A stretch of 64,000 nucleotides of DNA, taken from assembly GCF_007752135.1 (NCBI RefSeq), contig NZ_CP036298.1:248001-312000 (forward strand). The letters are read 5' to 3'. Source of the stretch: Aureliella helgolandensis. GTDB lineage: Bacteria > Planctomycetota > Planctomycetia > Pirellulales > Pirellulaceae. Below, one piece after another: positions 4,292 to 55,631 of the stretch (within the stretch, counting starts at the first letter, position 1; each line of letters starts with the position of its first letter). The notes beneath the pieces are model-generated. The model was not told where the DNA came from. It saw only the letters and a program-made list of their open reading frames with translations, and ran no database searches. The position numbers and the translations under genes were made by a program.

Positions 4292-5521
4292 ATGAATACT
4301 CGATTTACCACATTTACGCTGTTGAGCGTTTTGGTTTTGGTGGGCTGCCCCGCGGCAAAATCCCCCCAGCCTGAATCCGCGGCGAAGTCCCTTGAAACGC
4401 TCGACGCAGAGGTGCTTACTCTTGAGTTGAGCCCATGGCCTCAAACGGTTCGCAGCCAAGGGAGTTTGTATGCCGACGAGCAATCGGTAGTGGGGGCAAA
4501 AGTGGCCGGTCGCGTTGCCAAGGTGCATGGCGATGTTGGGGATGTGTTGAACCTGGGAGACCCGCTGGTTACCCTCGATCAAGAAGATTTTCGCTTGCAG
4601 GTCCAAATCGCCGAGGCGCAGCTTTTGCAATCGCGGTCGTCGGTCGGATTGCTTGAAGGGGACCCGATCGAAAAATTGGATCCTGTCAACGCGCCACCCG
4701 TCCGGCAGGAGCGTGCGCTGTGGGAAGAGGCGCAAAGCAGTTTAAAGCGTTTTACTTCGGTCACCAGTTCGAATGCAATCTCGCAGCGGGAGATTGACAT
4801 CGCCGCTGCTGCAGAGCGAGTTGCCGAGGCACGTTATGCTGCGGCCGTCAACGGTGTTCGCGAGAAAATTGCCTTGATCCAGGTGAATCAAGTTCAGTTG
4901 GCTGTCGCGCGAGAGAGATTCAAGGACACCGTCATTAGCAGCCCCATGGATGGATTTGTCCTGAACCGCCTCGTAGCTCCAGGAACCTACGTGTCGGTTG
5001 GCCAGTCGGTGGCGACAATCGTACGCACCAATCCCCTCCGCTTCCGCGGCACGGTCCCTGAACGCTACTCGCAATCGATAGCCATCGGGCAGAGTGTAAC
5101 TCTGAAGATTGAATCGCTGGCGGAACCTCGCGAAGCGAAGATTTCGCGGGTTAGTCCGGCGCTGGATCAACAGAGCCGAGCACTCACATTCGAAGCCTTG
5201 CTCGACAACACCGAACACACGCTGCGCGCCGGTCTGTTCGCCGAAGCGGATGTCGAGACCAATCCCGACGCGGTAGCACTGGTTGTGCCTGCGTCGGCAA
5301 TTACTGAGTTTGCGGGAGCGACCAAGGCCTGGAAAATCGTCGATGGAGTGACGGTAGAGCAAGAGGTGCAAATCGGTTCGCGACGAGGTACCTTTTGGGA
5401 AGTCGTGCGAGGACTGTCGCCCGGCGACGCAATTCTGCTGGACGCCGAGCAGGGCCGCATTGCAAAAATCGATCCTGCGAGAATTTCTAACGCGGCAGTT
5501 TCCACCGCCGTTGCTCCTTAA
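4292..5521 (+). CDS. RND efflux periplasmic adaptor lipoprotein (HlyD/MFP family)
   Basis: The start at 4292 (MNTRFTTFTL...) gives a lipoprotein signal with a lipobox L-V-G-C (Cys19). The longer frame from 4232 would bury it. The rest has the adaptor layout. A lipoyl half-motif ('GRVAKVHGDVGDVLNLGDPL') comes first, then a helical hairpin from about residue 95 to 200, then the second lipoyl half ('ISSPMDGFVLNRLVAPGTYV'). Beta-barrel and membrane-proximal domains end near residue 410. Such proteins bridge an inner-membrane RND pump to an outer-membrane channel. The pump gene follows directly. No outer-membrane factor is encoded nearby, so a channel from elsewhere would have to be used. Confidence 0.9.
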   Translation: MNTRFTTFTLLSVLVLVGCPAAKSPQPESAAKSLETLDAEVLTLELSPWPQTVRSQGSLYADEQSVVGAKVAGRVAKVHGDVGDVLNLGDPLVTLDQEDFRLQVQIAEAQLLQSRSSVGLLEGDPIEKLDPVNAPPVRQERALWEEAQSSLKRFTSVTSSNAISQREIDIAAAAERVAEARYAAAVNGVREKIALIQVNQVQLAVARERFKDTVISSPMDGFVLNRLVAPGTYVSVGQSVATIVRTNPLRFRGTVPERYSQSIAIGQSVTLKIESLAEPREAKISRVSPALDQQSRALTFEALLDNTEHTLRAGLFAEADVETNPDAVALVVPASAITEFAGATKAWKIVDGVTVEQEVQIGSRRGTFWEVVRGLSPGDAILLDAEQGRIAKIDPARISNAAVSTAVAP

Positions 5522-5571
5522 AATCACCGATTGGATGCCTACCCCGATTCCTCTCCTGGAAGTGTTGCATT

Positions 5572-8500
5572 GTGTATTGGCTTGCCGAGGTTTGTGTAAA
5601 GCGTCCGGTTTTTGCGTTGATGCTCATCACGGCGCTGGTGGTGGCTGGCGTCGTCGCCTTTCCACAACTGGGCGTGGATCGCTTTCCGAACCTTGATTTA
5701 CCGCAGATTTACATCCGCACGACCTACGTGGGAGCGGCGGCAGAAGAAGTCGAATCGGAAGTCAGCTCGGTTCTAGAAGACGCGGTCGCTACGGTCGCTG
5801 GGATTGACGAATTGCGTTCGATCTCAGCGGATGGTCGCTCGTTCGTGATTATTACGGTGCAATTGGATCGTGACATTGACTCTGCGATCCAAGATGTTCG
5901 CGATGCGGTCGCCAGTATTTTAAATCGCTTGCCCTCCGGCATCGATCCGCCGATCATTCAGAAGCAGGACTTGGATTCTTCGCCCATTCTGACACTTGCC
6001 GTCTCCGGCCCTCGCTCGCCTCGCGAGTTGTATGTGTTGGCGGATCGCTACGTGAAAAATGTGATTGAGTCGGCGCGAGGTGTAGGGCAGGTGCAGATCG
6101 CGGGAGCGGCAGATCGTGCGATCCAAGTTGACATTGATGCCAACCGCTTAGCCGCCTACGGGATCTCGATTCTGCAAGTTCGCGATGCCTTAGCAAGGCA
6201 AAATGCAGAAGTGCCCGGAGGACGGATGGATGAAGGGCAGCGCGAACGTTCCGTGCGGACACTGGGACGCATTGCTGAATCGAGTGGTTTTTCGGACTTG
6301 GTTGTCGCCACGGTTGGCGATACGGCGATTCGTCTCGGCGATCTTGGGCAGGCGGCTGACGCGACCAAAGAGGTGCGGACGCTCGCACGGCTCAACGGGA
6401 CACCCGCCGTGGTCTTGCAAGTCCAGCGACAGAGTGGTCAGAACACGGTTGCTGTGATTGAGGGAGTCAAGGCGGCGCTGCCCAGGTGTGACGCGTTATT
6501 GCCAGCAGATGTGCATGTTGAGATTATTCAGGATCAATCGCGGTATATCGTCGAAGCCTTGCATGAAATTGAGCGGCATTTGGTCTCGGGAAGCATTCTG
6601 GCTTGCCTGACGGTGTTGCTGTTCATGCGATCGTGGCGTTCCACGATCATCGCATCCGTCGCCATCCCTGCCTCAATCATTGCCACCTTTGCCTTCATGA
6701 AGTGGTTCGGGTTTACTCTGAATAATGTCACCATGCTGGCACTAGTGCTAATGGTCGGAGTCGTTATTGACGATGCGATCGTGGTGCTGGAGAACGTGTT
6801 TCGCTGTATCGAAGAGTTGGGGATGGAGCCAGCGGAAGCTGCCGTCAAAGGGACGAAAGAAATAGGGCTGGCGGTGCTGGCGACCACGCTCTCGCTGGTG
6901 ATTGTCTTCCTACCCGTCTCCTTTCTTTCTAGTGTGACAGGACGTTTGCTATTTGAGTTTGGAATCACAGCGACCGTTGCCATCTTGATCTCGATGTTGA
7001 TTAGCTTCTCGCTAACCCCCATGATGTGTAGCAAGCTACTGCGACCGGCCCCCAAGAGCGAGGCTGTATCCGCCCCCAGTTCTCGGCGTGGTTTGTACGG
7101 TTTAGTCGAAAGTTCCTATCTCAGGTTGCTCGCCGTTGCGCTGCGTTTCCGCTGGGCCGTCTTGGTATTGGTGGTCTTGGTGATCGCATCGAATTATCCG
7201 CTGAGCCAGTGGGTGCGCCGAGACTACGTTCCGCTGAATGTCGATGAATCGGAATTCGAAATCCGAGCTGAGGCAAGGCCCGGAGCTAGTATTCTGGCGA
7301 TGCGGGAGACGATCGATCGTGTCGAAGCCATTTTGAACAGCGTCGAAGGGATCGAAACGGTCTTAGCGTCGGTAGGGACAAGCGGCTATGGCGATGTGAA
7401 TCGCGCCCAAATTTATGTGCGATTGATGGATAGCAGCCTACGTACGTTTTCGTTGGGGCGATTGTGGGAAGGACTGCTCGCCGGCGACCCCCAAGCAGCA
7501 TTTCGCGATAATTTTAGTCAGCGCGACAAGATGGGAGAGGTCCGCAAGAAGCTTGGGAAGCTCGACGACGTGCGGATCTCCGTTCGCAATTTGACCTCCT
7601 TGCGGCAGGGAGCTCCGGTCGATATCGATTTTGCGATCACGGGGCCAGATGCTGAACAGTTGCTCGAGTTTAGTGAAAAGTTGCGCAAGAAGGCCGAGAC
7701 AATTCCAGGAATCGTGGATGTCTACTCTACGCTGCAGATCGATAACCCCGAGTTGCTGGTGTCGATCGATCGCGAGCGTGCAGCTGCGCTGGGCGTTGAA
7801 GTTCGCGAAATTGCGGAAACATTGCAGGTCGCTGTGGGCGGTGATGACCGTGTTTCGCGGTACCTAGATCGATCCGCGGGGGATGCCTATGACGTCGAAT
7901 TGCGTTTGATTGGGTTGGACCGTCACGATATCCCTTCGATCTCGCAGTTGTACGTTCGCACCAATCCAATTGCCAGGACCAACACTTCGGGGCAAGCGGC
8001 CTCAATGGCTTCAGAGCGCGGCGTACCATCGTTGACTAGGATCGATAATGTCGTCAATTTTGAAGTCAATACCGCAGCGTCGCGAATCGATCGACTCAGC
8101 CGTTCTCGCATGGTTGCGGTTCGCGCGAATGTGGCCGCCGGGTATGCACTGGGCGATCGGACCGAGGCGATGAAGCAAGCGGCGCAAGAGATTGGATTTC
8201 CGCCTGGGTTTAGTGGCGAGGCGCTCGGTGGTGGCCGGGAGTTGGAGCGTACGATCAGCGACTTTGGCTGGACCTTTCTCATGTCGTTTGTGTTTATGTA
8301 CATCGTTTTAGCAGCCCAGTACGAAAATTTGGTCTATCCGCTGATCATCTTGCTGTCCTTGCCACTGGCGGTTCCGTTCGGCTTGCTCAGTTTGTACTGG
8401 GGGGGGGAGACCCTAAATCTCTATTCTGCGCTTGGAATCCTGGTGCTGTTTGGCGTGGTCAAGAAGGCGGCGATCTTGCAGGTGGACCATACCAACGCCT

Positions 8501-37428: not shown

Positions 37429-38139
37429 TTACTGGAGGCACGCCCGAGTCACCGCCTGCGCGATGGCTTCACACCACCGCATTTGGCTCTGTTCCGAAAA
37501 TTTGGCAAAGCGATTGTTAAGTTCGATTTCAAGGCCTGCGTAGTGGGAGTTGGGAAATCGCGTTCTGAGAAATGTGGTAAACCCATCGTCGGTCCCAAGG
37601 TAGGGCTCGTTGTATCGAGCATCCAGCTCGGCTGTCTTGAGGTGGGCCACAATCTGCTCGCTAACGGTGACTTCCCAGGAACGCGCGGGATCGAATAGGA
37701 CGCCAATGTCCAACGTCCGTCGGCTGCCTCGAAAACGCGGCGTAAAGGAATGAATTGATAGGTGGAGCACGGTCTGGCCGGCATTCACCTGTTGAGCAAT
37801 CCGCTCTTGAACGCGATTGCGATAGGAATGGTAGTATCGATCGCAGATGCGGCTGCGGGTGACGCTATCAAGCGGTCCTAGGAACTTCGAGAAGAGCTGC
37901 GGTGAATCGAGTGAACGGTTCAGTTCGACGACGAGCCGCGAAGTCGTGCTGTATTCCAACGGAGCGGCGAGCAAGTCCGCGAGTCTCTGGGCGGCTAGCA
38001 ATGCACCTGGATCGTATCCACGGTGGCTGTGCAGGTGTTGCTGAGCTTCTCCCCGCTGGAAGCAATCCGCCAGCTCTGCAGGGACGGTGTTCCCGCCGTG
38101 CTCGCATGTGAGGATGATATGGGGAGGAGTTGCTTGCAT
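37429..38139 (-). CDS. N-formylglutamate amidohydrolase-like protein
   Basis: The 236-residue product has the FGase signature: I-L-T-C-E-H-G-G-N-T-V-P at the start, then S-H-R-G-Y-D-P-G-A and a middle S-I-H-S-F-T-P. The His and Glu residues are those proposed to hold the zinc ion in the carboxypeptidase-like fold. The family hydrolyses N-formyl-L-glutamate in histidine breakdown. Here there are no hut genes. It lies 23 bases behind a GCS2-type ligase, in line with RimK-like and peptidase genes, so it more likely removes or trims an amide on the cluster's product. Its substrate is unknown. It is probably the last gene of the seven-gene set. Confidence 0.85.
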   Translation of the reverse strand: MQATPPHIILTCEHGGNTVPAELADCFQRGEAQQHLHSHRGYDPGALLAAQRLADLLAAPLEYSTTSRLVVELNRSLDSPQLFSKFLGPLDSVTRSRICDRYYHSYRNRVQERIAQQVNAGQTVLHLSIHSFTPRFRGSRRTLDIGVLFDPARSWEVTVSEQIVAHLKTAELDARYNEPYLGTDDGFTTFLRTRFPNSHYAGLEIELNNRFAKFSEQSQMRWCEAIAQAVTRACLQ

Positions 38140-38162
38140 GTTCGCTCAGCCGGACGGAAGGC

Positions 38163-39404
38163 TCACAGTGACTGGAACGGTACCCAGCGATGGAGGCAAT
38201 CGGCAAGGTCGCGATAGACGTCTGCGAGCCTTTCACGCGAAAACTGGGGACCCAGGGCATGGGTGATGCGAGTCGCCAGCGTGCCGCTCTCCAGGATGAT
38301 TTGAATCGGAGCAAACAGGTTATCCAGTGTGGCATCCTCGCGGCGAAGTTCACCAAGCAGGGTACTCCACAGTTGGCCAGCGGTAATGCTTGATTTGCGA
38401 ATGCCAAAATGTTGCAGGTAGCCTGCGTCTTCGATGGTTGCGTTCTCCGCGTGGGCGGTTGTCTGATCGAGGATGCTTCTGAGGTCGGCTGTTGAAATCG
38501 ATTGCTGTTTTTCGAGTGGCAGCCATCTTTGATCGCACAATGCTCGCACGAGCGAGGTGACGGCGGCACAGATCGATACGTCTGCCGCTGGATACTCCTG
38601 GACATCCATCACACGCAGTTCGATGGAACCTCGGTCGAATCTTGCAATGGCGCCACGCGCGTTGAGGAACTCGACCTCCATCTGTCCTTGGGGATCTAGT
38701 TTGCCGATGTCGTTGGCAATTGGGGTAAATATCTCACGGCGGTAGGCCGCTTCGTCGAAGATCGGTTCGGGGATGAGATTGCCGGTCAGGGAGGGAACGG
38801 CTCGGCAATGATCTGCATAGAGATTCATGCGCGTATCGAGCAATCCGGTGTACTTGCCATCGAGTACCGGGGAGCTCGCAGCCAAAGCGGGCAGTAGCGG
38901 CAGGACGAGGCGTACCGCCGCATGCAACTTTGCAAATTCGGCTGCGTGTTTAAAGGGCAGGTTGAGATGCACGCTCTGGACGTTGGACCAGCCGTGAGTG
39001 CGGCAATTGAAGATGCGATCGTAGGTTTCGTAGATCTCGTGGTACTCATGCGGCCAAAGTCGAGTCTCCGTGGTCGCATTCATCCAGGGGTGTACCGCCG
39101 AGGGGAGTAGGCAGAGGCCCATGCCATCTAGGATAGGGCTGATTTCGCTAATGGCGGTTTCAAACATGGAGGGAAGTCGTCGCAAACGCCGTTTGGGCTT
39201 GGTCGTTTTGAGTTCGATGACGTGCAGGGCGAGTTCATTGGACCAGGAAATGGGGCCAATTTCGACATCGCAGGTCGTGTGACCGGCCATCGCAGCTAAC
39301 ACTTTGTCGGCGACGGGACGCACCTCCAACGTCTCTCGGTCGACCAGCATGTACTCCATTTCGATACCGAACGCTTCGAACAAACCCAAGCTTACTGTCG
39401 ACAT
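38163..39404 (-). CDS. GCS2-family carboxylate-amine ligase (YbdK/GshA-like)
   Basis: The start at 39404 (MSTVSLGLFE...) puts the metal-binding glutamates of F-G-I-E-M-E-Y at residues 15 and 17. A longer frame to 39491 adds a poorly conserved stretch. The body holds the V-H-L-N-L-P segment and the F-D-R-G-S-I-E-L-R-V-M-D-V-Q-E motif, hallmarks of the GCS2 glutamate-cysteine ligase-like family. The enzymes use ATP to form an amide between a carboxylate and an amine. YbdK has only weak glutamate-cysteine ligase activity, and most members have unknown substrates. It lies between the ATP-grasp ligase (156 bases upstream) and the amidohydrolase, which supports a shared pathway. Both ligases seem intact. 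Confidence 0.88.
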   Translation of the reverse strand: MSTVSLGLFEAFGIEMEYMLVDRETLEVRPVADKVLAAMAGHTTCDVEIGPISWSNELALHVIELKTTKPKRRLRRLPSMFETAISEISPILDGMGLCLLPSAVHPWMNATTETRLWPHEYHEIYETYDRIFNCRTHGWSNVQSVHLNLPFKHAAEFAKLHAAVRLVLPLLPALAASSPVLDGKYTGLLDTRMNLYADHCRAVPSLTGNLIPEPIFDEAAYRREIFTPIANDIGKLDPQGQMEVEFLNARGAIARFDRGSIELRVMDVQEYPAADVSICAAVTSLVRALCDQRWLPLEKQQSISTADLRSILDQTTAHAENATIEDAGYLQHFGIRKSSITAGQLWSTLLGELRREDATLDNLFAPIQIILESGTLATRITHALGPQFSRERLADVYRDLADCLHRWVPFQSL

Positions 39405-39560
39405 GTCAGACTCTCGTACTGAATATTGAGCGCTGCCCAGTGGCGGGCAGGAATGAATGAATTGTGTGAGATCGATCCCGATTCGCTGCACTGCTGAGGC
39501 AGTTGCAGGATAACAAGCTTCCTAGGGCGAGAATCGCACTTCGCCACACGCCACAGCGAG

Positions 39561-41030
39561 CTATTTGCCGCTGAGTGCTTTACGGCGTTCGATTCGACGT
39601 ACGAAGGATTCCATCAATCGACGGTAGAGTTCGTCGCGCAATACGAGGTCTTCGACGCCAGAGTCCAGGTTGGGATTGTCGTTGACTTCGATGATGAAGA
39701 AGTTCCCGTCCGCTTCCTTGACATCGACACCGTAGAGACCATCTCCGATCAAATTGGCCGCTTTGAGGGCGACCGAGACTGCCTTGCGCGGAGCAAGCTC
39801 TACAGGCAGTGTATCGAATTTTCCAAATTCGGGCTTCTCACTTGCCGCATGCTTTGCGATTTGCCAGTGGCCACGGGCCATATGGTATTTGCAGGCAAAG
39901 ATCGGGCGCTGGTCCAAAATACCGATTCGCCAGTCGAAATCGGTTCGCATGTATTCCTGGGCAATTACCAACTCGGAATCCACGAAGAATTCAGCCAAGC
40001 GTGCTTGCAGCTCCTGGGCGTCGTTGGCTTTCACCACTCCCTGGCTGAACGCGCTGTCGGGGCGTTTGAGGACGCAGGGGAAGGAGAGGTGTTCCGCCAC
40101 CGAATCCGCGTTGCGGCGGTGCACGACGATTGTTTTGGGAGTTGGGATCTTAGCCCGGTTCAGCAACTCCGCTAAGTATACTTTGTTGGTACAGCGCAGG
40201 ATGGAAAGGGGGTCGTCAATCACCACTTGACCGGCCGCTTCGGCTCGCCGGGCGAGTTGGTAGGTATGGTGGCTGACCGCGGTCGTCTCGCGGATAAAGA
40301 GGGCATCGAACTCAAGCAACCGCCCGGCGTCCTCGCGGGTGATCAACTCTGCGGCGATACCCAAGCTAGCGGCCGCTTTAATCATCCGTTTGAGAGCCGG
40401 CGGATCGGAGGGAGAGAGTTGTCCTTCCGCTGGATTGTGGAGTATCGCCAGGTCGTAGCGCGAGGCGTGCCGCTTGGGACGGCGAGAAAAGCCACGTGCA
40501 AAGTGCCGCTGCGCGGCGCTAGCCACGAACTCTCGATGACTCTTGGGGATATCGTTGAGGGCGATGGCCGAAGCGCGTCGCAACCGCCACTTGCCACGCC
40601 GTGAGAACTTAAACCTCAACAACGGTGCTTGGAACAGTCCGTACAGCTCCCTGGCGAGCCGATCGTACTTGCGCGCTAGGTTCTCGCCAAAATAGACGCT
40701 GAGCGTGAACTCATCGGCGGTCAAGCTTTGGAGCGATTTTTGGATGACCTCTTCTAGTGAAGAGGGGATCAGCCGCACTGCCGCCACTCCATGCAAGTCT
40801 TGCATGGTCATAACATCTGGAATGGGACGTTGCCCACGAGCTTCTGCCAGTAGCGAAACGTAATACCCCATGCTTTGGTAGGCATAGGATCTACAGAGGT
40901 TGTAGATCTTGGTTCCTCGCCGAAAGTCCCAGTCTGGATTGGTTAGATAGTCACTGGGGTCAATGGTCTGAACGCCCTCAAAACCGCCAAGCCAGTCATC
41001 GCTGGATTCGGCAACGAGAACGACATTCAT
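39561..41030 (-). CDS. RimK-like ATP-grasp amide ligase with N-terminal RLAN-type domain
   Basis: The 489-residue protein has an N-terminal domain of about 180 residues of the RLAN kind (RimK-like ATP-grasp N-terminal), recognised by 'YNLCRSYAYQSMGYYVSLLAEAR'. An ATP-grasp domain starts near residue 280: C-V-L-K-R-P-D-S-A-F-S-Q-G-V, then I-A-Q-E-Y, D-W-R-I-G-I-L-D and the metal-binding end I-I-E-V-N-D-N-P-N-L-D. RimK adds glutamates to ribosomal protein S6. Members with RLAN form amide or peptide bonds in small-molecule or peptide-modifying pathways. The stop of the C39-like peptidase gene lies directly before this ATG, with no spacer. It is probably the central ligase of the cluster. Confidence 0.9.
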   Translation of the reverse strand: MNVVLVAESSDDWLGGFEGVQTIDPSDYLTNPDWDFRRGTKIYNLCRSYAYQSMGYYVSLLAEARGQRPIPDVMTMQDLHGVAAVRLIPSSLEEVIQKSLQSLTADEFTLSVYFGENLARKYDRLARELYGLFQAPLLRFKFSRRGKWRLRRASAIALNDIPKSHREFVASAAQRHFARGFSRRPKRHASRYDLAILHNPAEGQLSPSDPPALKRMIKAAASLGIAAELITREDAGRLLEFDALFIRETTAVSHHTYQLARRAEAAGQVVIDDPLSILRCTNKVYLAELLNRAKIPTPKTIVVHRRNADSVAEHLSFPCVLKRPDSAFSQGVVKANDAQELQARLAEFFVDSELVIAQEYMRTDFDWRIGILDQRPIFACKYHMARGHWQIAKHAASEKPEFGKFDTLPVELAPRKAVSVALKAANLIGDGLYGVDVKEADGNFFIIEVNDNPNLDSGVEDLVLRDELYRRLMESFVRRIERRKALSGK

Positions 41031-41825
41031 TTAGTGGCTCGCTTCACGCATGGAACGTGGTGTTAGTGTGAGGAGGTTCGCATCGTAGGTAACGATGCCC
41101 AAAAGAATGGCTGCCGTGACTCGCGAGCGAGCAGCGACATATTGATTGCTGGGGGCGATGGGATTGGGGTGCAATGGATCTGCAATCTGCACATTGCCGC
41201 TGTGCGGATCGTAGCCATGCAGCACGACAAAATGGCCGGTGGGGTCACCGCCAATATCGTCAGGGACGCAGGTTTTTCCCTGGGCATCGGCCGGTTGCCA
41301 ACGCTCCCTGCGCTCCTGGTAGAGGTACGTCGCGCTGACGCCGCAGAGCATTGGTTTTCCATCGGATAATGTCGACACGATCAACTCTTCGTTGATCGGC
41401 CGCATCTCGATGCGTCCGCCCAACGTTAAGAATTTTAAATAGGATTCGGTGGCTGTCTGCAATCGATGTTGGTCGGTATCGGGGCGGGTGCGTTTGACAG
41501 CATACTGCTGCTTGAGCTTATCGGCTAGCCAGTTGGCGTCTGGGCCGGCCGGCTCTCGAAACCACGACGGGTCAAAGACCTGCAGGTTATGCGTCGTGAT
41601 GACCGCGTCGTAGCCACGCTGTAACGCGTGGCATCCGAGCTGAACCGCAAGCGTGCCACCGCTGGACAGTTCCCCAATTTCGATGATCAATTGGTTCAAA
41701 TCGACCGGATCATTCCAGTACTGGTAAACCGCCGCCAAGCAGGTGGGGCCGCAACTGGAGTCATTCGGTTGGGACTGAATTTGAACTTGAAGGGCATGTT
41801 TCATGCGTGAGCTTGTCATCGTCAA
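41031..41825 (-). CDS. C39-like papain-fold cysteine peptidase
   Basis: The 264-residue protein has the catalytic cysteine in P-N-D-S-S-C-G-P-T-C (Cys25), the histidine in T-G-H-F-V-V-L-H-G-Y-D (His198) and the aspartate in Q-I-A-D-P (Asp216). These are the three positions of peptidase_C39-like enzymes. Unlike bacteriocin exporters, no transporter or ATPase part is attached and no leader is visible, so it is a free cytoplasmic peptidase. The ATG at 41825 overlaps the stop of the small upstream gene (41822), and its own stop abuts the ATP-grasp gene. It may cut a leader or release a peptide made by the two ligases. It could also act as a transglutaminase-like transferase, since the fold allows both. 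Confidence 0.8.
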   Translation of the reverse strand: MTMTSSRMKHALQVQIQSQPNDSSCGPTCLAAVYQYWNDPVDLNQLIIEIGELSSGGTLAVQLGCHALQRGYDAVITTHNLQVFDPSWFREPAGPDANWLADKLKQQYAVKRTRPDTDQHRLQTATESYLKFLTLGGRIEMRPINEELIVSTLSDGKPMLCGVSATYLYQERRERWQPADAQGKTCVPDDIGGDPTGHFVVLHGYDPHSGNVQIADPLHPNPIAPSNQYVAARSRVTAAILLGIVTYDANLLTLTPRSMREASH

Positions 41826-42139
41826 AAGTCGCTATCTCGATCGCGATTCTCGCCTCGTGGGCGATGCGACTTGGTTTCAGGTGGAACGGTAACGATGACG
41901 GCGTCACCACGACGGTCGGTGATTTCGCAGTCTTCGGGAAGTTGCAAGTCGTCGATCGTGAGTTCGCCACCATCAACGATGTCGTCGGCGACCAATTCGA
42001 GTCGATCGGGGAAGTGATGCTCGGGCCCTTCCAGGCGAACTCGCTTGATCGCTTGGTTGATCTTTTTGGGCCGCCGTACAGAATCACTGTAAACGAGCTT
42101 GATGTTGACATCGTGAACGATCCATTCCGAACCACTCAT
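41822..42139 (-). CDS. Small protein resembling the C-terminal domain of ribosomal bL25
   Basis: The 105-residue product reads ...KINQAIKRVRLEG... and then ...DRLELVADDIVDGGELTI... and D-L-Q-L-P-E-D-C-E-I-T-D-R-x-G-D-A-V-I-V-T-V-P-P. That order of strands is that of the TL5/CTC beta domain of bL25 ('...I-E-V-D-V-x-x-L-x-x-G-D-S-x-x-V-x-D-L-x-L-P-E-G-V...V-V-x-V'). The N-terminal RNA-binding domain of bL25 is lacking. The stop overlaps the start of the peptidase gene by four bases. Whether it is a carrier, a substrate or a scaffold for the pathway is unknown. The similarity is by eye and could be a coincidence of beta-rich sequence. Confidence 0.6.
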   Translation of the reverse strand: MSGSEWIVHDVNIKLVYSDSVRRPKKINQAIKRVRLEGPEHHFPDRLELVADDIVDGGELTIDDLQLPEDCEITDRRGDAVIVTVPPETKSHRPRGENRDRDSDF

Positions 42140-42176
42140 GATTACTTTCTACCTGTTGATTGGAGAAGCTCAAGTC

Positions 42177-43727
42177 TTATTCTCTGCCATTCGCCTTGGC
42201 ACGTATTCGAAGGAGCGAAGGTAGGATTGGCACGTCCAGTGTAGCAGTCGCCGGGCGGATCCCCAGCACGCGAACTGCCAGCGTCCGAATTGGAACCGGT
42301 TTCAGATCAGCCCGCAAGAGGAGGATCAGCGCTACGGCGCGGCCGCAACTTGAGAGCCCGAACAGCACTAAGTATGCGTTGAGGGTGCAGCCTAGGGAAT
42401 TCAAGAGCACGGCTCCCAGAGTCGCCCCCGCAAACATCGCTAGTGTATTAGCGAAGTTATACAACGTCAGCAGCTTGGTGCGCTGGTTGGCTGGCAGGGT
42501 TTCAAAGAACAGTAGGAAAAATCCGAGTTCATAGGCGGCCCAGGCAATCCCGCTGAAAAATTGAGCGATCATCAACCACCAAATGTTGGCGGACACCGTC
42601 CACATGGCGGAAAGGGGGACGAGGCCAATGGCTCCGATCCACAGAAGTGTCGAAGCTCCAAAGTGACTGGCAATCCGCGTCCACATCGCCAGTGCTAAAA
42701 CACGCGACAGGAATGCAACCGCTACTAAAAATACGAATTGATAGTAGTCCATCCCCAATTGCTTCAGCATGTAGGGTGCAAAAAACGGGCCGCTCACCTG
42801 AACGCAAGCCTGCACGGCGACTAGATACACGAGCAACCGTTTGCCTGACTTCGAGATCCCCTGCGTGCTGCTGGTGGCACCGCTTGCGGCGGCGGAGGTG
42901 GTGAGGCGACGAGAATCTCCGGTTGACGATTGGCGGGAGGTTAACCTTGGATTGGTGCGGTGTAGCGCTAGGCATGCCGCCGAAATTGAACGGAAGATTG
43001 CAGCCAATAGGAAGATGGAAGCAAAGCCAGTCAGCAACCAACCCTGGTTTTGGGCCGTTTGCAGCAGGGCCCCGCCTCCAACAAAGGCGATGAGGGTTGC
43101 AAGTTGTTGCAGCCGAGTTCGATTGGAGAAGTAGCCAGCTCGAATCTGAGATGGAACGACCGTTTCCATCCACGTGTTCCAAGCAGGGCCCGAAGCCAAT
43201 CCCGCCCCCCAGTAGATTGATGCAACGAGCAGCAGTCCAGGCAACCCGATAAAGCCGCTCAGGGCGGCGATTACCAGCGGTAGGAAGGCTAATGCTTGAA
43301 TCGACGCGCACAGGACTACCCAACGCTGCTCAGTCCCCAGCCATCGCATGGCCCGCAGCGAGACCAACTGCATGCCACCGCCAGCCACCACCGGTAGACT
43401 GGCCACCAGTCCAGCAGAGGTTTCGCCCAACCCGAGCGCTAGGGCAAACGCCGGAAGATACGATTCACCGAGTCCGACCATGGCTCCAAAATTGGCGCCG
43501 TCTCCCATGCTTTGTTTCAGATTCTGCCGCGTCGTTTGCGGGATCGAACCCAGCCGTCTGGCAGGAACGCTCGGTTCACGAGCTTGCAGTGTGTCGCCCA
43601 AGGAGTCGTTCTCGCTCTGCATAAACGGCTTGGCAAAGGAATCTTGGTTGGCCGATGAGTTCACGACCACCGAGCTGCGTGCAGGGGGACGCAAGGTGGT
43701 GGCGCGGGCTTCAAACGCATTGGGCAT
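42177..43727 (-). CDS. Major facilitator superfamily transporter
   Basis: About 12 hydrophobic segments, in two groups divided by a Ser/Thr-rich linker (around 'TSRQSSTGDSRRLTTSAAAS'), mark an MFS protein. The membrane part starts near G-A-N-F-G-A-M-V-G. The frame is open upstream to 44030 inside the M42 gene, so I start it at the first ATG after that gene, 43727 (MPNAFEAR...). Even so, about 75 residues of disordered, basic sequence precede helix 1, so the true start may be 43622 (MQSENDS...). It lies between peptidase and ligase genes and is the likely exporter or importer of the cluster's product. No substrate can be inferred. Confidence 0.8.
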   Translation of the reverse strand: MPNAFEARATTLRPPARSSVVVNSSANQDSFAKPFMQSENDSLGDTLQAREPSVPARRLGSIPQTTRQNLKQSMGDGANFGAMVGLGESYLPAFALALGLGETSAGLVASLPVVAGGGMQLVSLRAMRWLGTEQRWVVLCASIQALAFLPLVIAALSGFIGLPGLLLVASIYWGAGLASGPAWNTWMETVVPSQIRAGYFSNRTRLQQLATLIAFVGGGALLQTAQNQGWLLTGFASIFLLAAIFRSISAACLALHRTNPRLTSRQSSTGDSRRLTTSAAASGATSSTQGISKSGKRLLVYLVAVQACVQVSGPFFAPYMLKQLGMDYYQFVFLVAVAFLSRVLALAMWTRIASHFGASTLLWIGAIGLVPLSAMWTVSANIWWLMIAQFFSGIAWAAYELGFFLLFFETLPANQRTKLLTLYNFANTLAMFAGATLGAVLLNSLGCTLNAYLVLFGLSSCGRAVALILLLRADLKPVPIRTLAVRVLGIRPATATLDVPILPSLLRIRAKANGRE

Positions 43728-43836
43728 ATCTGGCTTCGTGGCAGTTACGTTGCCGGCGTTGATAGATTTCTGGGAACTGGGAACTGGGGCCGCACGGCGA
43801 GCTGCGACTGGACCTCTTGGAGCTGGCTGTGTGCCG

Positions 43837-44922
43837 TTACTCAGGAGGAGGGAGCTTGCACAAGTGGCAGAGTAGTCGCAGCATGGCTTCAATACTACTG
43901 ATCTCGGCGGTCTCATTCGCGGTATGGTAGGACGAAGTTGGGAGCTGCAGCGTTGTGCCTCGGACCGTTCCCCGGGTGGCGGTGAGAACCCGTCCCAGCT
44001 CTGTCCTACCAAGTGAGAGCTGCTTCTCACGGTTCTGGTTCAGACTTTCGACATATTGGTCCTTAAAGCGGTACGAGATTCCCAGACTTTCACAGCTTGT
44101 CCGCAATTCTTCAGTAACCTCGCGATCGAATTCCGAGTTCGCGTCCTTGTAGCGGAGGACCACTTCTTGCTCGGACAATTCCTCCAAGCTGCCGAAAGGG
44201 CTCGTGTCGAGTACGATCAGGCGGTTGGTTTGCGTGTCGTGTCGTTGAAACCACTCGGTGGCAAAACGCCAACTGCGCCCTGCCTCTTCGCCTGCGGTAA
44301 ATAACGCAGTCCCCTGAAAGCCGAGGCGAATTAACTCGATGAGCATGGCCACGGAAATGACGTTGTCGAGCTGGGCTGAGACGCGTCCTCCATCGACTTT
44401 TAAGCGGTCCAGGAACGAAACTGGAGTTCCGGGCTGCAGGAATTCGAGTCCATCGATTTCGAAGATCAAATTGCGCCGACGCGGGCAGACGTACGATTCA
44501 GTAATCGTGCCTTGTCCCAGGTAGGAGCCCGTGTAGGGAGTATGCGCCTGAACGCGCTGCCCATGGAAGCGCCCCGCCACCAATTCCATGAACTGCTCGG
44601 AAACGGAGTCGCCGGTCAGCTCACTGCGATTGCCTGCAATGAAGGCTGCATACTGAAATTCATTGGGGCCGGTGCACAGCAAGCCGTGGCGATCGACGTG
44701 GGCCGACAGATAGAGGCTGTCGGGTTGTGAGCCCTGCGCCACGAGAAGACCTTGGTAGCGTCGCACCGTCACTTGGCATTCTTCCAGCTCTCGTCGAAGT
44801 ATGCGGAAGAACGCGTCTTCCACACCCACCACGGATGGCTCTCGCACCAGAACTCGCAGCAGATGCAGCAGCTCGTTGACGTTGGCGGAAGTGGCAGGCA
44901 GTGGAGGTTGGGTTGTTGGCAT
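43837..44922 (-). CDS. M42-like metallopeptidase (aminopeptidase fold)
   Basis: The 361-residue protein keeps the complete metal and base set of M42/M28-like enzymes: S-A-H-V-D (His75, Asp77), Q-L-D-N (Asp186), G-E-E-A-G (Glu212, Glu213), V-L-D-T (Asp239) and S-Y-H-T-A-N-E (His333). So it should bind two zinc or cobalt ions and cleave an N-terminal residue or an isopeptide. No leader is seen. It begins the seven-gene minus-strand set, and a peptidase of this type could trim the amino-acid chain made by the two ligases. The next gene upstream, mnmE, is unrelated and ends 121 bases away. Confidence 0.87.
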   Translation of the reverse strand: MPTTQPPLPATSANVNELLHLLRVLVREPSVVGVEDAFFRILRRELEECQVTVRRYQGLLVAQGSQPDSLYLSAHVDRHGLLCTGPNEFQYAAFIAGNRSELTGDSVSEQFMELVAGRFHGQRVQAHTPYTGSYLGQGTITESYVCPRRRNLIFEIDGLEFLQPGTPVSFLDRLKVDGGRVSAQLDNVISVAMLIELIRLGFQGTALFTAGEEAGRSWRFATEWFQRHDTQTNRLIVLDTSPFGSLEELSEQEVVLRYKDANSEFDREVTEELRTSCESLGISYRFKDQYVESLNQNREKQLSLGRTELGRVLTATRGTVRGTTLQLPTSSYHTANETAEISSIEAMLRLLCHLCKLPPPE

Positions 44923-49435: not shown

Positions 49436-50602
49436 CTAAGCGAGGGCCTTTTTCAGCTCAGCAGCTTTATCGGTATTTTCCCAGGTAAACTCAGGCTCTG
49501 AACGACCAAAGTGGCCGCCTGCGGAAGTTTGGCGGTAGATTGGGCGTCGCAATTGGAGGTAGTCGATGATTCCACCGGGAGTCAGTGGGAATAGTTTGAC
49601 GACCGCATCGCAGATCTTGCTATCTTCCACTTTGCCCGAACCTTGGGTGTCGACGTAGACGCTGACCGGCTGGGTCACGCCAATTGCATAGGCAAGCTGC
49701 ACTTCGCAGCGATCTGCTAGGCCGGCTGCCACGATGCACTTAGCAACGTGTCGAGCCATGTAGGCTGCACTGCGGTCAACCTTGGTGGGATCCTTGCCGC
49801 TGAAAGCTCCGCCGCCGTGGCGTCCCCAGCCACCGTAAGTGTCGACGATGATCTTCCGGCCTGTTAGACCGCAATCTCCGTGCGGGCCACCCACGACGAA
49901 CTTGCCTGTTGGATTGATGTGGTATTTGATGTCGCCCTTCACCAATTCGGCGGGGAGGCAACCTTTGATCACGTTCTCAATGACGAATTTCTTAATCGTT
50001 TCTTGATCGACATCAGGGCCGTGTTGGGTGGAAACGACGATGGTATCGATTCGCACCGGTTTGTGCCCGTCATACTCGACGGTGACTTGGCTCTTGCTAT
50101 CGGGCCGCAGCCAGTCGACTTCACCCGTCCGGCGAGCTTCCGTCAAGCGGTTGGTGATGCGATGGGCCAGCGCGATGGGCAGCGGCATGAGCTCGGGAGT
50201 GTCGTTGCAAGCGAATCCGAACATCAGCCCTTGGTCGCCAGCTCCAATCTCCTTGCCAGCAGTAGAGTCCTCGTTGACGCCTTGAGCGATGTCCGCACTC
50301 TGTTCGTCGAGGGCAACCATGACGTTGCAGGTGTCCGCGCACAGTCCCATCATGTCGTCGGTGTAGCCGACTTCGCGAATGACCTCACGGATGACCTTTG
50401 CGTAATTGACATTGGCGGATGTTGAAATCTCACCGGCAATCATCGCCAAACCGGTTGTAACCAGCGTTTCGCAAGCCACACGGCTATTTGGATCTTGTGC
50501 GAAAATCGCGTCCAGGACTCCGTCCGAAATACGGTCGGCCAGCTTATCTGGATGGCCCATGCTGACAGATTCACTGGTGAAGAGATGTTTACCCGATGCC
50601 AC
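49436..50602 (-). CDS. metK: S-adenosylmethionine synthetase
   Basis: The 388-residue enzyme starts with GTG at 50602 and has GGAGG ten bases upstream. It shows [12 protein letters not shown] near the start, then [12 protein letters not shown]. The flexible-loop region follows with [16 protein letters not shown]. These are the ATP-, methionine- and metal-binding motifs. The enzyme makes SAM from methionine and ATP. The trans-sulfuration pair lies 34 kb away. An upstream gap of 286 bases separates it from the divergent metal-transport operon. I found no recognisable SAM riboswitch there. Confidence 0.97.
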
Positions 50603-52674: not shown

Positions 52675-54087
52675 ATGCTCAGCAAACTCCTGGCTGACGT
52701 CAACGTGCCACTGGTATTGGCCGACCAAACGAATCGCATCCTGCGAATCATTCTGTTGCAAGATCTCAACACCCGAGTTGTTTTGCTAGGTACCTTCTTG
52801 CTGGGTATCGCAGCCGGAGTGCTGGGGGTATATCTGCTGCTCAGACGCAGGGTTTTGATTGGGGATGCGATCAGCCACTCCACGCTGCCTGGCGTTGCGC
52901 TGGCCTTCTTGTGGACAACCGGTGCCGACGGGAGTAAGTCGCTGCCCATCTTGTTGTTGGGAGCAGCCATCAGCGGTGCACTGGGAGGTGCGTCGGTATT
53001 GTTGCTCCGCAATCTAGCCAATATGCGTGAGGACGCTGCGCTGGGAATTGTGCTCAGCGTTTTCTTTGGGGCTGGGGTAGCACTCGTTTCGGTGGTTCAG
53101 CGGGTGGGAGGTAATGTCGCGGGATTGGAAGCCTTCATTTATGGCAAGGCTGCGTCGATGACTCCCGAGGATGTGTGGCTTAGTGGCGGGGCGGCTTTCA
53201 TTGTTTTGTGCGTCGTGCTGCTGCTAGGCAAAGAGTTGAAGATCCTCTGTTTTGACGCTGAGTTCGCCCGCAGCCAGGGCTGGCCAGTACTGCTGCTAGA
53301 TAGCCTGTTGATCGGCTTGGTCGTCGCGGTCACCATCGTCGGATTGCAAGCCGTGGGCTTGATCCTGATCATCGCGTTGTTGGTTATTCCGGCTGCCAGC
53401 GCTCGCTTCTGGACGCATGATCTCAAGCTGCTGCTATGGCTTGCGGGAAGCATGGGTGGAGTTAGTTGCGCGGCCGGCACGCTGGTGAGCGCCAGTTTTG
53501 ATCGCATGCCCAGTGGCGCGAGTATCGTTTTGGCGGGTTGCAGTTTATTCCTACTCAGTTTTGTATTTGGGACGCAGCGCGGAGTGCTGTGGCGTGCGAC
53601 GCGCATGATAGGGATGCGGCGTGAACAGAATTTTCAGCATTTCCTACGGGCCGCCTATGAAGAGCTGGAAACGCAGAATGCGATCCCGCTGGGGGCTGGC
53701 GAGTTGAAAACCACCGAACCGGTCATGCTCGAGAAAATTCGTCAACGACGATTCTGGACACTTGCCCGAGTGAGAATCATCGCCAAGCAAATGTCGCGAG
53801 CTGGCTTAGTGGTGTTTGGAGGTGGGCATACAGCTAGGCTCACACCACGCGGCATGGTTCGGGCGTTGGCGACCGTCCGCGATCACCGACTGTTGGAACA
53901 CTACATGATGGATCAGGCAGAAGCTAAGGTCGGGGAGGCGGACCGCGAAGCCGACTACCTGGAGCATGGGCTACTTCCCGAGCATCTCGCGGAGCTCTCC
54001 GGTGCACTCGATCCTACCATTGGCGATATTGTGCCACCCAATCCCCACGCGCAAACTGACCGAAACCCAAAGGCTGAGAACGAGTGA
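52675..54087 (+). CDS. Metal ABC permease fused to a DtxR/TroR-type regulator domain
   Basis: The first 310 residues form a TroC/ZnuB-type permease with about eight helices and the G-D-A-I-S-H-S-T-L-P-G motif. The last 155 residues are soluble. A stretch starting near residue 316 (N-F-Q-H-F-L-R-A-A-Y-E-E-L) leads to a region resembling a winged helix (...R-A-G-L-V-V...R-L-T-P-R-G). The dimerisation segment of DtxR-like repressors follows: A-T-V-R-D-H-R-L-L-E-H-Y and A-D-Y-L-E-H-G-L. The whole reads as a fused TroC and TroR. A membrane-bound regulator or a metal-dependent gate for the transporter is implied. It overlaps the decarboxylase gene by four bases. Confidence 0.9.
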   Translation: MLSKLLADVNVPLVLADQTNRILRIILLQDLNTRVVLLGTFLLGIAAGVLGVYLLLRRRVLIGDAISHSTLPGVALAFLWTTGADGSKSLPILLLGAAISGALGGASVLLLRNLANMREDAALGIVLSVFFGAGVALVSVVQRVGGNVAGLEAFIYGKAASMTPEDVWLSGGAAFIVLCVVLLLGKELKILCFDAEFARSQGWPVLLLDSLLIGLVVAVTIVGLQAVGLILIIALLVIPAASARFWTHDLKLLLWLAGSMGGVSCAAGTLVSASFDRMPSGASIVLAGCSLFLLSFVFGTQRGVLWRATRMIGMRREQNFQHFLRAAYEELETQNAIPLGAGELKTTEPVMLEKIRQRRFWTLARVRIIAKQMSRAGLVVFGGGHTARLTPRGMVRALATVRDHRLLEHYMMDQAEAKVGEADREADYLEHGLLPEHLAELSGALDPTIGDIVPPNPHAQTDRNPKAENE

Positions 54088-55631
54088 ACCCACTTCTCCG
54101 AGAGGCATATTCCACCGACGCGTTTCGCAAGTCCGCTCATCGCTTGATCGATCAGATCTGCGATCATTTAGCAGCGAGTTTTGCGGGGGAGCACCAACAG
54201 GCACTTCCCTGGCAGGCCCCCGAAAATGCTCAGCGTTTCTGGCGAGATTTGGCGCAGCAGAGTCCCACCATCGAGGAGGTTTGCCAGCATATCCTCGATC
54301 GCAGCGTGCGCATCAGTGACCCCAAGTACATGGGGCATCAGATTTGCGTTCCAGCGCCCACGGCCATCTTGGCAGGGATGGTTACCGAAGCGTTGAACAA
54401 TGGTTCGGGGGTGTTTGAAATGGGCATGGCCGGAACGGCCATGGAGAGCCATGTGGTGCAGGTTGTTGCTCGTCGGCTCGGGTGGGATGAGGCCGCGGAT
54501 GGATATTTGACCAGTGGCGGTACATTGGCGAATTTGACCGCTCTGCTCGCCGCTCGGGCGTGCCGCCGACTGCACTCCGATGCCCTCGATGGTCCCTCGC
54601 ATTCCACCAGTGCCTCCCCGACGAGCGATTGGGAGCACGGAACGCGACAGCGCTTGGCCGTAATGGTTTCTGAGCAGGCGCATTATTGTGTCGATCGGGC
54701 GGCACGCGTCATGGGGTGGGGGGCGGCTGGGATCATCCGTGTTCCAACCAACCCAGCCTTTCAGATGGACACCGAGCAATTGCCGAGACTCTATGCGCAA
54801 GCGACGGAGGATGGGTTAACCGTCGTGGCGATAGTCGGAAGTGCTTGTTCGACCTCGACCGGTGCGTACGATGATCTGCAGGCGATCGCGGATTTCGCCG
54901 CCGAGCAACGCCTGTGGTTTCATGTCGATGGGGCGCATGGTGCCGCCGTGGCCTTTTCGGATCGGCATCGTGGGATGTTGGCTGGTATCGAGCGCGCTGA
55001 CAGCGTGGTAATCGACTTCCACAAAATGTTGCTGACTCCAGTGCTCTGCAGTGCACTGGTGTTTCGCTGCGGAGCGGATAGCTACCGGACCTTTGCCACT
55101 GAGGCAGAGTACTTGTTTTCGCAGCAAGAGGAAAATGAGAGTGTGGCCGCTGCGGAGAGCTTTAATCTAGCTCGGCGTACTTTTGAATGCACCAAGACGA
55201 TGATGGCTGCCAAAATCTACAGTTTATTGGCAGTTCATGGTGAGCAATTGCTGGAGGCGAGCGTTGATCACTTGCATGCGTTGGCGAGTCAGTTCGCGGC
55301 CGTGATCGAGTCGCGCCGCGAATTTGAGTTGGCGGTGCAACCTCAATCCAACATCGTCTGCTTTCGATACCACGGACGTGGAGAAACGACCGACAAGTCG
55401 AGTCGAAGCGTCGAGGCTGCTGTCGCCCTCAGCCAGCGGATGACCCTTGTTCGTCAAGCGCTGACCGAGCAAGGTAAATTCTACATCGTCAAAACTGTAT
55501 TGCGCGGTGAAGTTTGGCTGCGTTGCACGATTGCCAATCCGTTTACCAGTGCAGACGAGTTTAATGCATTGTTAGATGAAGTCGAACGGTTGACTGAAAC
55601 TCTTCGGCCATCCCTAACGGAACGCGTTTGA
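54084..55631 (+). CDS. Group II PLP-dependent decarboxylase
   Basis: The 515-residue enzyme starts with GTG in a four-base overlap with the permease-regulator gene. The cofactor lysine is Lys314 in D-F-H-K-M-L-L-T-P, and F-H-V-D-G-A-H-G contains the aspartate that binds the pyridine nitrogen. This pattern fits the aromatic-amino-acid/glutamate/2,4-diaminobutyrate decarboxylase group. The substrate cannot be decided, but placement in the metal-transport operon allows a metallophore precursor or a diamine role. It ends 18 bases inside the convergent DNase I-like gene. Confidence 0.86.
   Translation: MNPLLREAYSTDAFRKSAHRLIDQICDHLAASFAGEHQQALPWQAPENAQRFWRDLAQQSPTIEEVCQHILDRSVRISDPKYMGHQICVPAPTAILAGMVTEALNNGSGVFEMGMAGTAMESHVVQVVARRLGWDEAADGYLTSGGTLANLTALLAARACRRLHSDALDGPSHSTSASPTSDWEHGTRQRLAVMVSEQAHYCVDRAARVMGWGAAGIIRVPTNPAFQMDTEQLPRLYAQATEDGLTVVAIVGSACSTSTGAYDDLQAIADFAAEQRLWFHVDGAHGAAVAFSDRHRGMLAGIERADSVVIDFHKMLLTPVLCSALVFRCGADSYRTFATEAEYLFSQQEENESVAAAESFNLARRTFECTKTMMAAKIYSLLAVHGEQLLEASVDHLHALASQFAAVIESRREFELAVQPQSNIVCFRYHGRGETTDKSSRSVEAAVALSQRMTLVRQALTEQGKFYIVKTVLRGEVWLRCTIANPFTSADEFNALLDEVERLTETLRPSLTERV

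Follow-up and report, generated by a model that had tools for sequence, protein, structure and literature searches.

The locus and its gene models

The window analysed here is a stretch of 64,000 nucleotides of Aureliella helgolandensis (NZ_CP036298.1), that is, positions 248001-312000 of an 8.44 Mb single-contig genome, and it contains a gene cluster with two ligases of the RLAN-RimK and GCS2 types. According to the listing of open reading frames (ORFs) of the window, seven minus-strand ORFs are present between positions 44922 and 37429, all of which scored above the curated Pfam cut-offs. In the order of transcription, they encode an M42-like metallopeptidase (43837-44922; Peptidase_M42, 40.2 bits), an MFS transporter (42177-43622, start uncertain; MFS_1, 52.2 bits), an ORF resembling the C-terminal domain of bL25 (41822-42139; Ribosomal_TL5_C, 30.5 bits at a cut-off of 27), a C39-like papain-fold cysteine peptidase (41031-41825; Peptidase_C39_2, 48.2 bits), a protein composed of an RLAN domain and a RimK-like ATP-grasp ligase (39561-41030; RLAN, 160 bits; RimK, 44.8 bits), a GCS2-type carboxylate-amine ligase (38163-39404; GCS2, 93.6 bits) and a hydrolase resembling N-formylglutamate amidohydrolase (37429-38139; FGase, 82.6 bits). 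These genes and domain types agree with a preliminary description of this DNA, which had also proposed that all seven serve one pathway. We found that the seven genes are not one unit. The core consists of C39, RLAN-RimK, GCS2 and FGase in fixed order and is conserved far beyond chance; conservation of the M42 and MFS genes is moderate, and none was found for the bL25-like ORF.

Some of the gene starts could be refined. An MFS frame beginning at 44030 would overlap the M42 gene by ~190 bases, and an ATG at 43622 or 43508 is likelier, since the homologue in locus L053 begins near there. The GCS2 ORF is open from 39491, and its start is probably the ATG at 39404, because homologues begin at this point, which leaves ~156 bases between RLAN-RimK and GCS2. 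The middle three genes had been described as coupled by overlap or zero spacing. This was borne out for C39 and RLAN-RimK, where TAA is followed at once by ATG, but the overlap between the bL25-like ORF and C39 needs a TTG start, and homologues favour an ATG a few codons later.

Conservation of the four-gene core

When 84,980 species genomes were scanned, at least 577 RLAN-RimK relatives emerged, and the best 80 loci (L053-L132) were analysed with profile hidden Markov models (HMMs), gaps being measured as distances between HMM matches. We also used a sample of 60 related genomes (the source genome included), in which the orthologue cut was set by hand at E < 1e-100. On this basis, RLAN orthologues were accepted in 17 of the 38 genomes with matches and a GNAT-nitrilase protein (see below) in 19 of 22; for MFS, every genome with a match at E up to 1e-20 was counted (25 genomes), and for M42 all 10 genomes with matches. 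It should be noted that five or more of the 80 loci also occur in the genome sample (L061 = G009, L068 = G044, L081 = G011, L129 = G072 and L111 = G076).

The best 80 loci span eleven phyla, for example Planctomycetota, Pseudomonadota, Bacteroidota, Verrucomicrobiota and Thermodesulfobacteriota. Among the matches listed, from which records nearest to the source genome were possibly left out, the closest named RLAN relatives belong to the planctomycetes Roseiconus nitratireducens (75%) and Stieleria tagensis (74%). The complete order C39-RLAN-GCS2-FGase was present in 46 of the 80 loci; GCS2 was found in 74, C39 in 71, FGase in 47 and M42 in 1. Where the contig left room, 70 of 79 loci had C39 upstream of RLAN-RimK; on the downstream side, GCS2 was present in 73 of 77 loci and FGase in 41 of 66. 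The median gaps were 10.5 bases between C39 and RLAN and 3 bases between RLAN and GCS2. The preliminary description would have given up a functional unit if relatives carried the ligases without the peptidases and the transporter at chance rates. With regard to C39 this is not the case, but most of the loci lack MFS and M42.

A similar arrangement was observed in the related genomes. Around the 17 RLAN orthologues, C39 was located upstream in all 16 cases with sequence available, 15 of 17 had GCS2 as the next downstream gene, and in 9 of 17 FGase came after it. The GCS2 subfamily occurred in 18 of the 60 genomes, comprising all 17 with an RLAN orthologue and one of the 43 without (G002, where the gene is cut by the contig end). 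Pairwise distances of the four core proteins were correlated (r 0.54-0.68; maxima of 0.12-0.22 in 500 shuffles), and the RLAN tree was clustered by phylum, yet needed 16 changes against a minimum possible of 10. Thus, the set mostly travels together, although some transfer is possible.

The ligase pair

In two genomes of one planctomycete genus, RLAN-RimK and GCS2 are joined by a short linker in one open frame (1028 codons in G092 and 1021 codons in G073). These ligase-ligase fusions occupy single minus-strand frames at 4386-7472 of L137 and 4053-7118 of L138. Profile comparison aligned 404 GCS2 columns to residues 613-1024 of the longer fusion (E 9.7e-65).

Residues K322, D366, R368, E448 and N450 of RLAN-RimK were invariant in a 58-row alignment. 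The RimK-type sequence match spans residues 236-463, with RimK and LysX as the nearest families, and the structural model (predicted local distance difference test (pLDDT) of 88) gave RimK, LysX/ArgX and D-Ala-D-Ala ligases as best PDB matches, with ~300 columns aligned. In GCS2, the GhExE motif (E15 and E17) and other residues were invariant in a 48-row alignment; a passage of PMC2588565 gives GhExE as the motif of carboxylate-amine ligases.

The core hydrolases

The C39-like protein has an invariant set of Q19, C25, H198 and D216 (56-row alignment). Its model (pLDDT 94) resembles papain folds of the isopeptidase and transpeptidase types, and the best PDB matches included the pseudomurein endoisopeptidase PeiR, C39 peptidase domains and the phytochelatin synthase Alr0975 with a glutathione acyl intermediate. 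For FGase, the nearest solved relative was 2odf of Agrobacterium (E 6.6e-40), and E13, H14, H39, D43, H130, E204 and E206 were invariant in a 32-row alignment. Going by the folds, the invariant residues of the core proteins other than those of GhExE would be catalytic.

Because a pseudomurein endoisopeptidase heads the structural matches of C39, the cluster might also be concerned with peptides of the cell-wall type, the ligases building a peptide cross-link or recycling wall peptides and C39 acting as an isopeptidase on such links. An oxidoreductase gene ~2.3 kb upstream in Thiobacillus-type loci (L113, L115, L124 and L130) would fit this explanation, with a match to the C-terminal domain of diaminopimelate dehydrogenase at 25.1 bits; but this score is below the cut-off of 30 and concerns one group only, in a flanking-gene annotation limited to recurring families, so that other wall genes may be present. 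The structural matches of C39 are themselves at superfamily level, and we regard a cell-wall role as very improbable.

Optional partners and genomic context

The bL25-like ORF had no close relative in the 59 related genomes, in which only two weak matches (27% and 24% identity) were found, and the source genome holds a stronger TL5_C match in another gene. It is possibly a decayed or repurposed copy and probably stands outside the pathway. A BLAST-based search found no conserved short ORF near the 80 loci, although very short or fast-evolving ones could escape it. On this result, a LysW-type carrier or a ribosomally made precursor was set aside as a candidate, and no small tag protein of the Pup type was detected beside the ligase.

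These results bear on the possibility of protein tagging, in which RLAN-RimK and GCS2 would attach amino acids to the tail or a side chain of a protein, in the manner of RimK on ribosomal protein S6 or of PafA with Pup, C39 and FGase would remove the tag, and the bL25-like ORF could be the target. Such a function would suit a RimK domain whose closest sequence relatives are RimK and LysX, a GCS2 family related to PafA (in a passage of PMC2588565) and a ribosomal-protein-like ORF that touches C39 in the window. It is less easily reconciled with the scarcity of relatives of this ORF, with the result of the short-ORF search and with the joining of both ligases in a single frame, an arrangement known from glutathione synthesis; we consider tagging unlikely.

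Around the 80 loci, recurrence in distant taxa was seen for a GNAT-nitrilase protein (Acetyltransf_1 and CN_hydrolase domains) and, within planctomycetes, for the MFS family. Most other recurring neighbours reflect local synteny in Pontibacter or in Thiobacillus-type loci. The GNAT-nitrilase was not visible in the window because in the source genome it is encoded, unlinked, 3.4 Mb from the cluster (3,718,675-3,720,189). It lies in or beside the cluster in L057, L061, L070, L072, L102 and L129 of the 80 loci and in the relatives' loci L036, L038 and L039 (= L061), and in L136 (= L129) it is placed between GCS2 and FGase, inside the operon.

Co-occurrence was assessed with Fisher tests, which treat related genomes as independent. 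In the 60 genomes, the GNAT-nitrilase was present in 14 of 17 genomes with an RLAN orthologue and 5 of 43 without (p 3.3e-7); the corresponding numbers were 13/13 and 3/24 within the family and 6/6 and 1/9 within the genus. In 138 genomes of the phylum, it was found in 16 of the 36 genomes that have an RLAN family match and in 6 of the 102 that have none (p 5.8e-7), or 14 of 34 and 6 of 101 (p 5.1e-6) after removal of three genomes that belonged to the first sample. For the phylum sample, three of 25 GNAT-nitrilase genomes were dropped because their matches were confined to the nitrilase half. No RLAN genome was removed, and the 36 thus include two split matches and both RLAN classes (see below). 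Genome size or kinship as the mere cause of this co-occurrence was rejected on the grounds that the GNAT-nitrilase link holds within the genus and that a control gene of the window (54084-55631) was not enriched (4 of 17 versus 8 of 43; p 0.46), a single control counting for little. This control gene, typed by eye as similar to pyridoxal phosphate-dependent decarboxylases, lies downstream of genes resembling those of metal ABC transporters and has matches at E up to 1e-50 in 12 of the 60 related genomes.

The M42 gene adjoins the cluster in G007 (L037) and in L057 and is 5.4 kb away in G025 (L038), but it was near the cluster in only one of 59 loci with room. It was detected in 10 of the 60 genomes, namely 8 of 17 with an RLAN orthologue and 2 of 43 without (p 3.1e-4), and all 10 also carry the GNAT-nitrilase. 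An M42 homologue in G059 (C1:4464459-4465496), a genome without an RLAN orthologue, has an in-frame TAG within the match and is perhaps a decaying partner gene. In L036, L053, L054, L066, L076 and L077, an MFS homologue was found no more than ~4 kb from the cluster (on the opposite strand in L036 and L066). Linkage is limited to some planctomycetes; the genome counts were 12 of 17 and 13 of 43, respectively (p 0.005). The GNAT-nitrilase, M42 and MFS proteins probably have roles in the pathway, judging from their co-occurrence with RLAN and from linkage in some of the loci. The idea that all seven genes act together was rejected in view of the few relatives of the bL25-like ORF, an M42 gene that is rarely adjacent though co-occurring, and the restricted linkage of MFS.

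In six Pontibacter loci (L091, L093, L098, L100, L101 and L103), arginine-type genes were observed upstream of C39, perhaps as mere local synteny.

The abundance of hydrolases in and around the cluster (C39, FGase, M42 and GNAT-nitrilase), which outnumber the ligases, raises the possibility of a catabolic set for amines or peptides. The Puu pathway of putrescine use follows such a logic of glutamate protection. Here, GCS2 would protect an amine or peptide with glutamate, which FGase, C39 and M42 would later set free. An MFS protein near the cluster in some planctomycetes would be in line with this, as would genes resembling class-III aminotransferase, M20 peptidase and argininosuccinate lyase within ~7 kb upstream in the six Pontibacter loci (the aminotransferase also in L073 and M20 also in L075). 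But these arginine-type genes were found mainly in a single genus, where a minus-strand gene separates them from the cluster, and the two ATP-spending ligases are the most strictly kept pair, FGase being optional. Therefore, we assign a catabolic function only a small probability.

With regard to the wider context of the window, mnmE lies 121 bases upstream of M42 on the same strand, with more minus-strand genes beyond it up to metK at 50602. The gene spacing suggests an operon, whose boundary is unproven since the same-strand run starts upstream of M42. Predicted intrinsic terminators (4 found, 4.1 expected from shuffles) and sigma-70 promoters (8 found, 9.2 expected) matched the shuffled counts and were dropped as operon evidence. 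MnmE was rejected as a cluster member: among 17 relatives' loci, only weak GTPase matches were seen, in L036.

A second class of RLAN-RimK loci

We fetched 15 loci of the 36 RLAN-containing phylum genomes plus L136; they were chosen partly for odd ORF lengths and not at random. Seven of them (L140-L146) belong to a second class with other partners. A GNAT domain is fused to RLAN-RimK in L140 (5860-7824, minus strand) and L144 (5956-7914, plus strand), a GNAT gene adjoins RLAN in L141 and L142, and in L145 RLAN follows a GNAT-DUF3335 protein (5087-6196, plus strand); L143 and L146 were left out of this comparison of GNAT neighbours. DUF3335 is described in a passage of PMC10318531, citing Iyer et al. 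2009, as a papain-like family that is often fused to GNAT. The window C39 is distantly related to the DUF3335 part of the L145 protein (hhalign probability 90, E 1.5e-6). Thus, RLAN-RimK, an acetyltransferase and, in part, a papain-fold peptidase are common to both classes, and the window class adds GCS2, FGase and the nitrilase domain.

A possible pathway

We propose that the four core genes encode an ATP-driven cycle for the assembly and turnover of a small gamma-glutamyl-type peptide or amino-acid conjugate, a proposal to which we give slightly better than even chances and in which the substrates, the directions of the hydrolases and the product are deduced. GCS2 would activate the carboxylate of a side chain, most probably that at the gamma position of glutamate, and join an amine to it. 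RLAN-RimK would then activate the free carboxylate of this product and add a further amine. The C39-like enzyme may cut one amide bond or transfer via an acyl-enzyme step, and FGase may take off an acyl or glutamyl group. In some hosts, the product would probably be capped by the GNAT-nitrilase, broken down by the M42 peptidase and transported by the MFS protein. The fixed order across phyla, the pairing of RLAN with GCS2 and their fusion support a logic in which GCS2 acts first and the ATP-grasp enzyme extends. This was also the reaction sequence of the preliminary description, with peptidase trimming at the end, and it gains support to this extent, although not as a seven-gene pathway.

Several observations weigh against the proposed cycle or limit it. 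Three of the 80 loci (L059, L126 and L127) lack both C39 and GCS2, FGase is absent in 33 of them (25 of these with at least 3,200 bases downstream), and in G044 and G050 GCS2 is carried on a different contig. Neither C39 nor FGase was found beside the fusions, both of which are on short contigs in one genus, and no GCS2 or C39 of the window type was found on the fetched stretches of the seven second-class loci. Two of the 16 phylum genomes with both RLAN and GNAT-nitrilase (G166 and G182) have no GCS2 at the fetched locus, so the association with the GNAT-nitrilase extends beyond the GCS2 class, and relatedness was left uncorrected in the co-occurrence tests. At the protein level, GCS2 is far from curated subfamilies (TIGR02050, 70 bits at a cut-off of 176) and its 48-row profile matches no PDB chain at E 0.01, and the 13 structural matches of C39 at E up to 0.001 have template modelling (TM) scores of 0.34-0.47 by query length, that is, at superfamily level. 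Finally, an R...N...GG stretch forms a substrate loop in RimK and LysX. In HMMER alignments, it is replaced in RLAN-RimK by invariant Y382, M384 and W389, so the acceptor may differ from glutamate, and glutamate should not be assumed.

A more specific version of the proposed cycle, which we consider a long shot, is that a widespread pair of GCS2 and RLAN-RimK makes a glutathione-like metabolite. A C39 transpeptidase similar to phytochelatin synthase could then join it into gamma-glutamyl oligomers, and the GNAT-nitrilase would add acyl caps. If true, a new small peptide cofactor, thiol or osmolyte would be common to hundreds of bacterial species.

Comparison with known systems

Glutathione synthesis offers a parallel for the ligase pair. 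As in GshA, GshB and GshF, a GCS-type ligase and an ATP-grasp ligase occur both as separate genes and as a fused protein; a passage of PMC4574134 describes bifunctional GshF as uniting both ligase activities in one protein. Unlike the glutathione enzymes, the window GCS2 belongs to a divergent subfamily, for which the listed NCBIfam glutamate-cysteine ligase models scored far under their cut-offs, and its ATP-grasp partner is RLAN-RimK, not GshB. Glutathione synthetase models were likewise far under cut-off for this partner, whose closest families remain RimK and LysX, although alignments did not find in it the R...N...GG loop of the LysX/ArgX/RimK glutamate ligases. The domain order also differs, as the ATP-grasp part comes first in the RLAN-GCS2 frame and last in GshF.

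Phytochelatin synthase and Alr0975 share with C39 the papain fold, the Gln-Cys-His-Asp set and, if our reading is right, a gamma-glutamyl peptide substrate; but the structural match is at superfamily level only, and Pfam assigns the window protein to C39_2 and lists no match to phytochelatin synthase for it. The NAGGN osmoprotectant system combines a GNAT-ATP-grasp ligase, an amidotransferase and an M42 peptidase, and is not known to include GCS2, C39 or FGase. The combination of an ATP-grasp ligase with GNAT and M42 proteins is seen here as well, but the window M42 scored 13.2 bits with the NCBIfam equivalog trio_M42_hydro, whose cut-off is 397.75. Rlo/Rim systems were rejected as relatives, since their partners, as given in a passage of PMC12239564, differ. 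The gene set was not found in passages of PMC8939145, PMC4431377 and PMC2922099, and our literature searches found no paper on the function of the four-gene set.

The closest counterpart is the RLAN-RimK kind of cluster to which Pfam PF14401 refers. In 2009, Iyer et al. reportedly predicted RLAN-RimK gene clusters that contain peptidases and GCS2, and described RLAN-RimK systems with GNAT-papain (DUF3335) partners. Such systems resemble the set studied here in having an RLAN-RimK ligase, a papain-fold peptidase and an acetyltransferase; in the window, both RLAN and RimK domains of the ligase are over cut-off, and the papain-fold C39 is directly upstream. On the other hand, the window peptidase is a stand-alone C39-like protein that matches no GNAT family in Pfam, the GNAT domain resides in the separately encoded GNAT-nitrilase, and GCS2 and FGase are part of the operon. 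Therefore, the window set is a variant within a known, functionally uncharacterised kind of RLAN-RimK cluster. Within a single genome collection, RLAN-RimK relatives were found in no fewer than 577 stretches, GCS2 accompanies 74 of the best 80, and cultured species of Pontibacter, Rufibacter and Thiobacillus are among the carriers. The fusion and the GNAT-nitrilase partner narrow a vague prediction to testable enzymes that could reveal a new metabolite.

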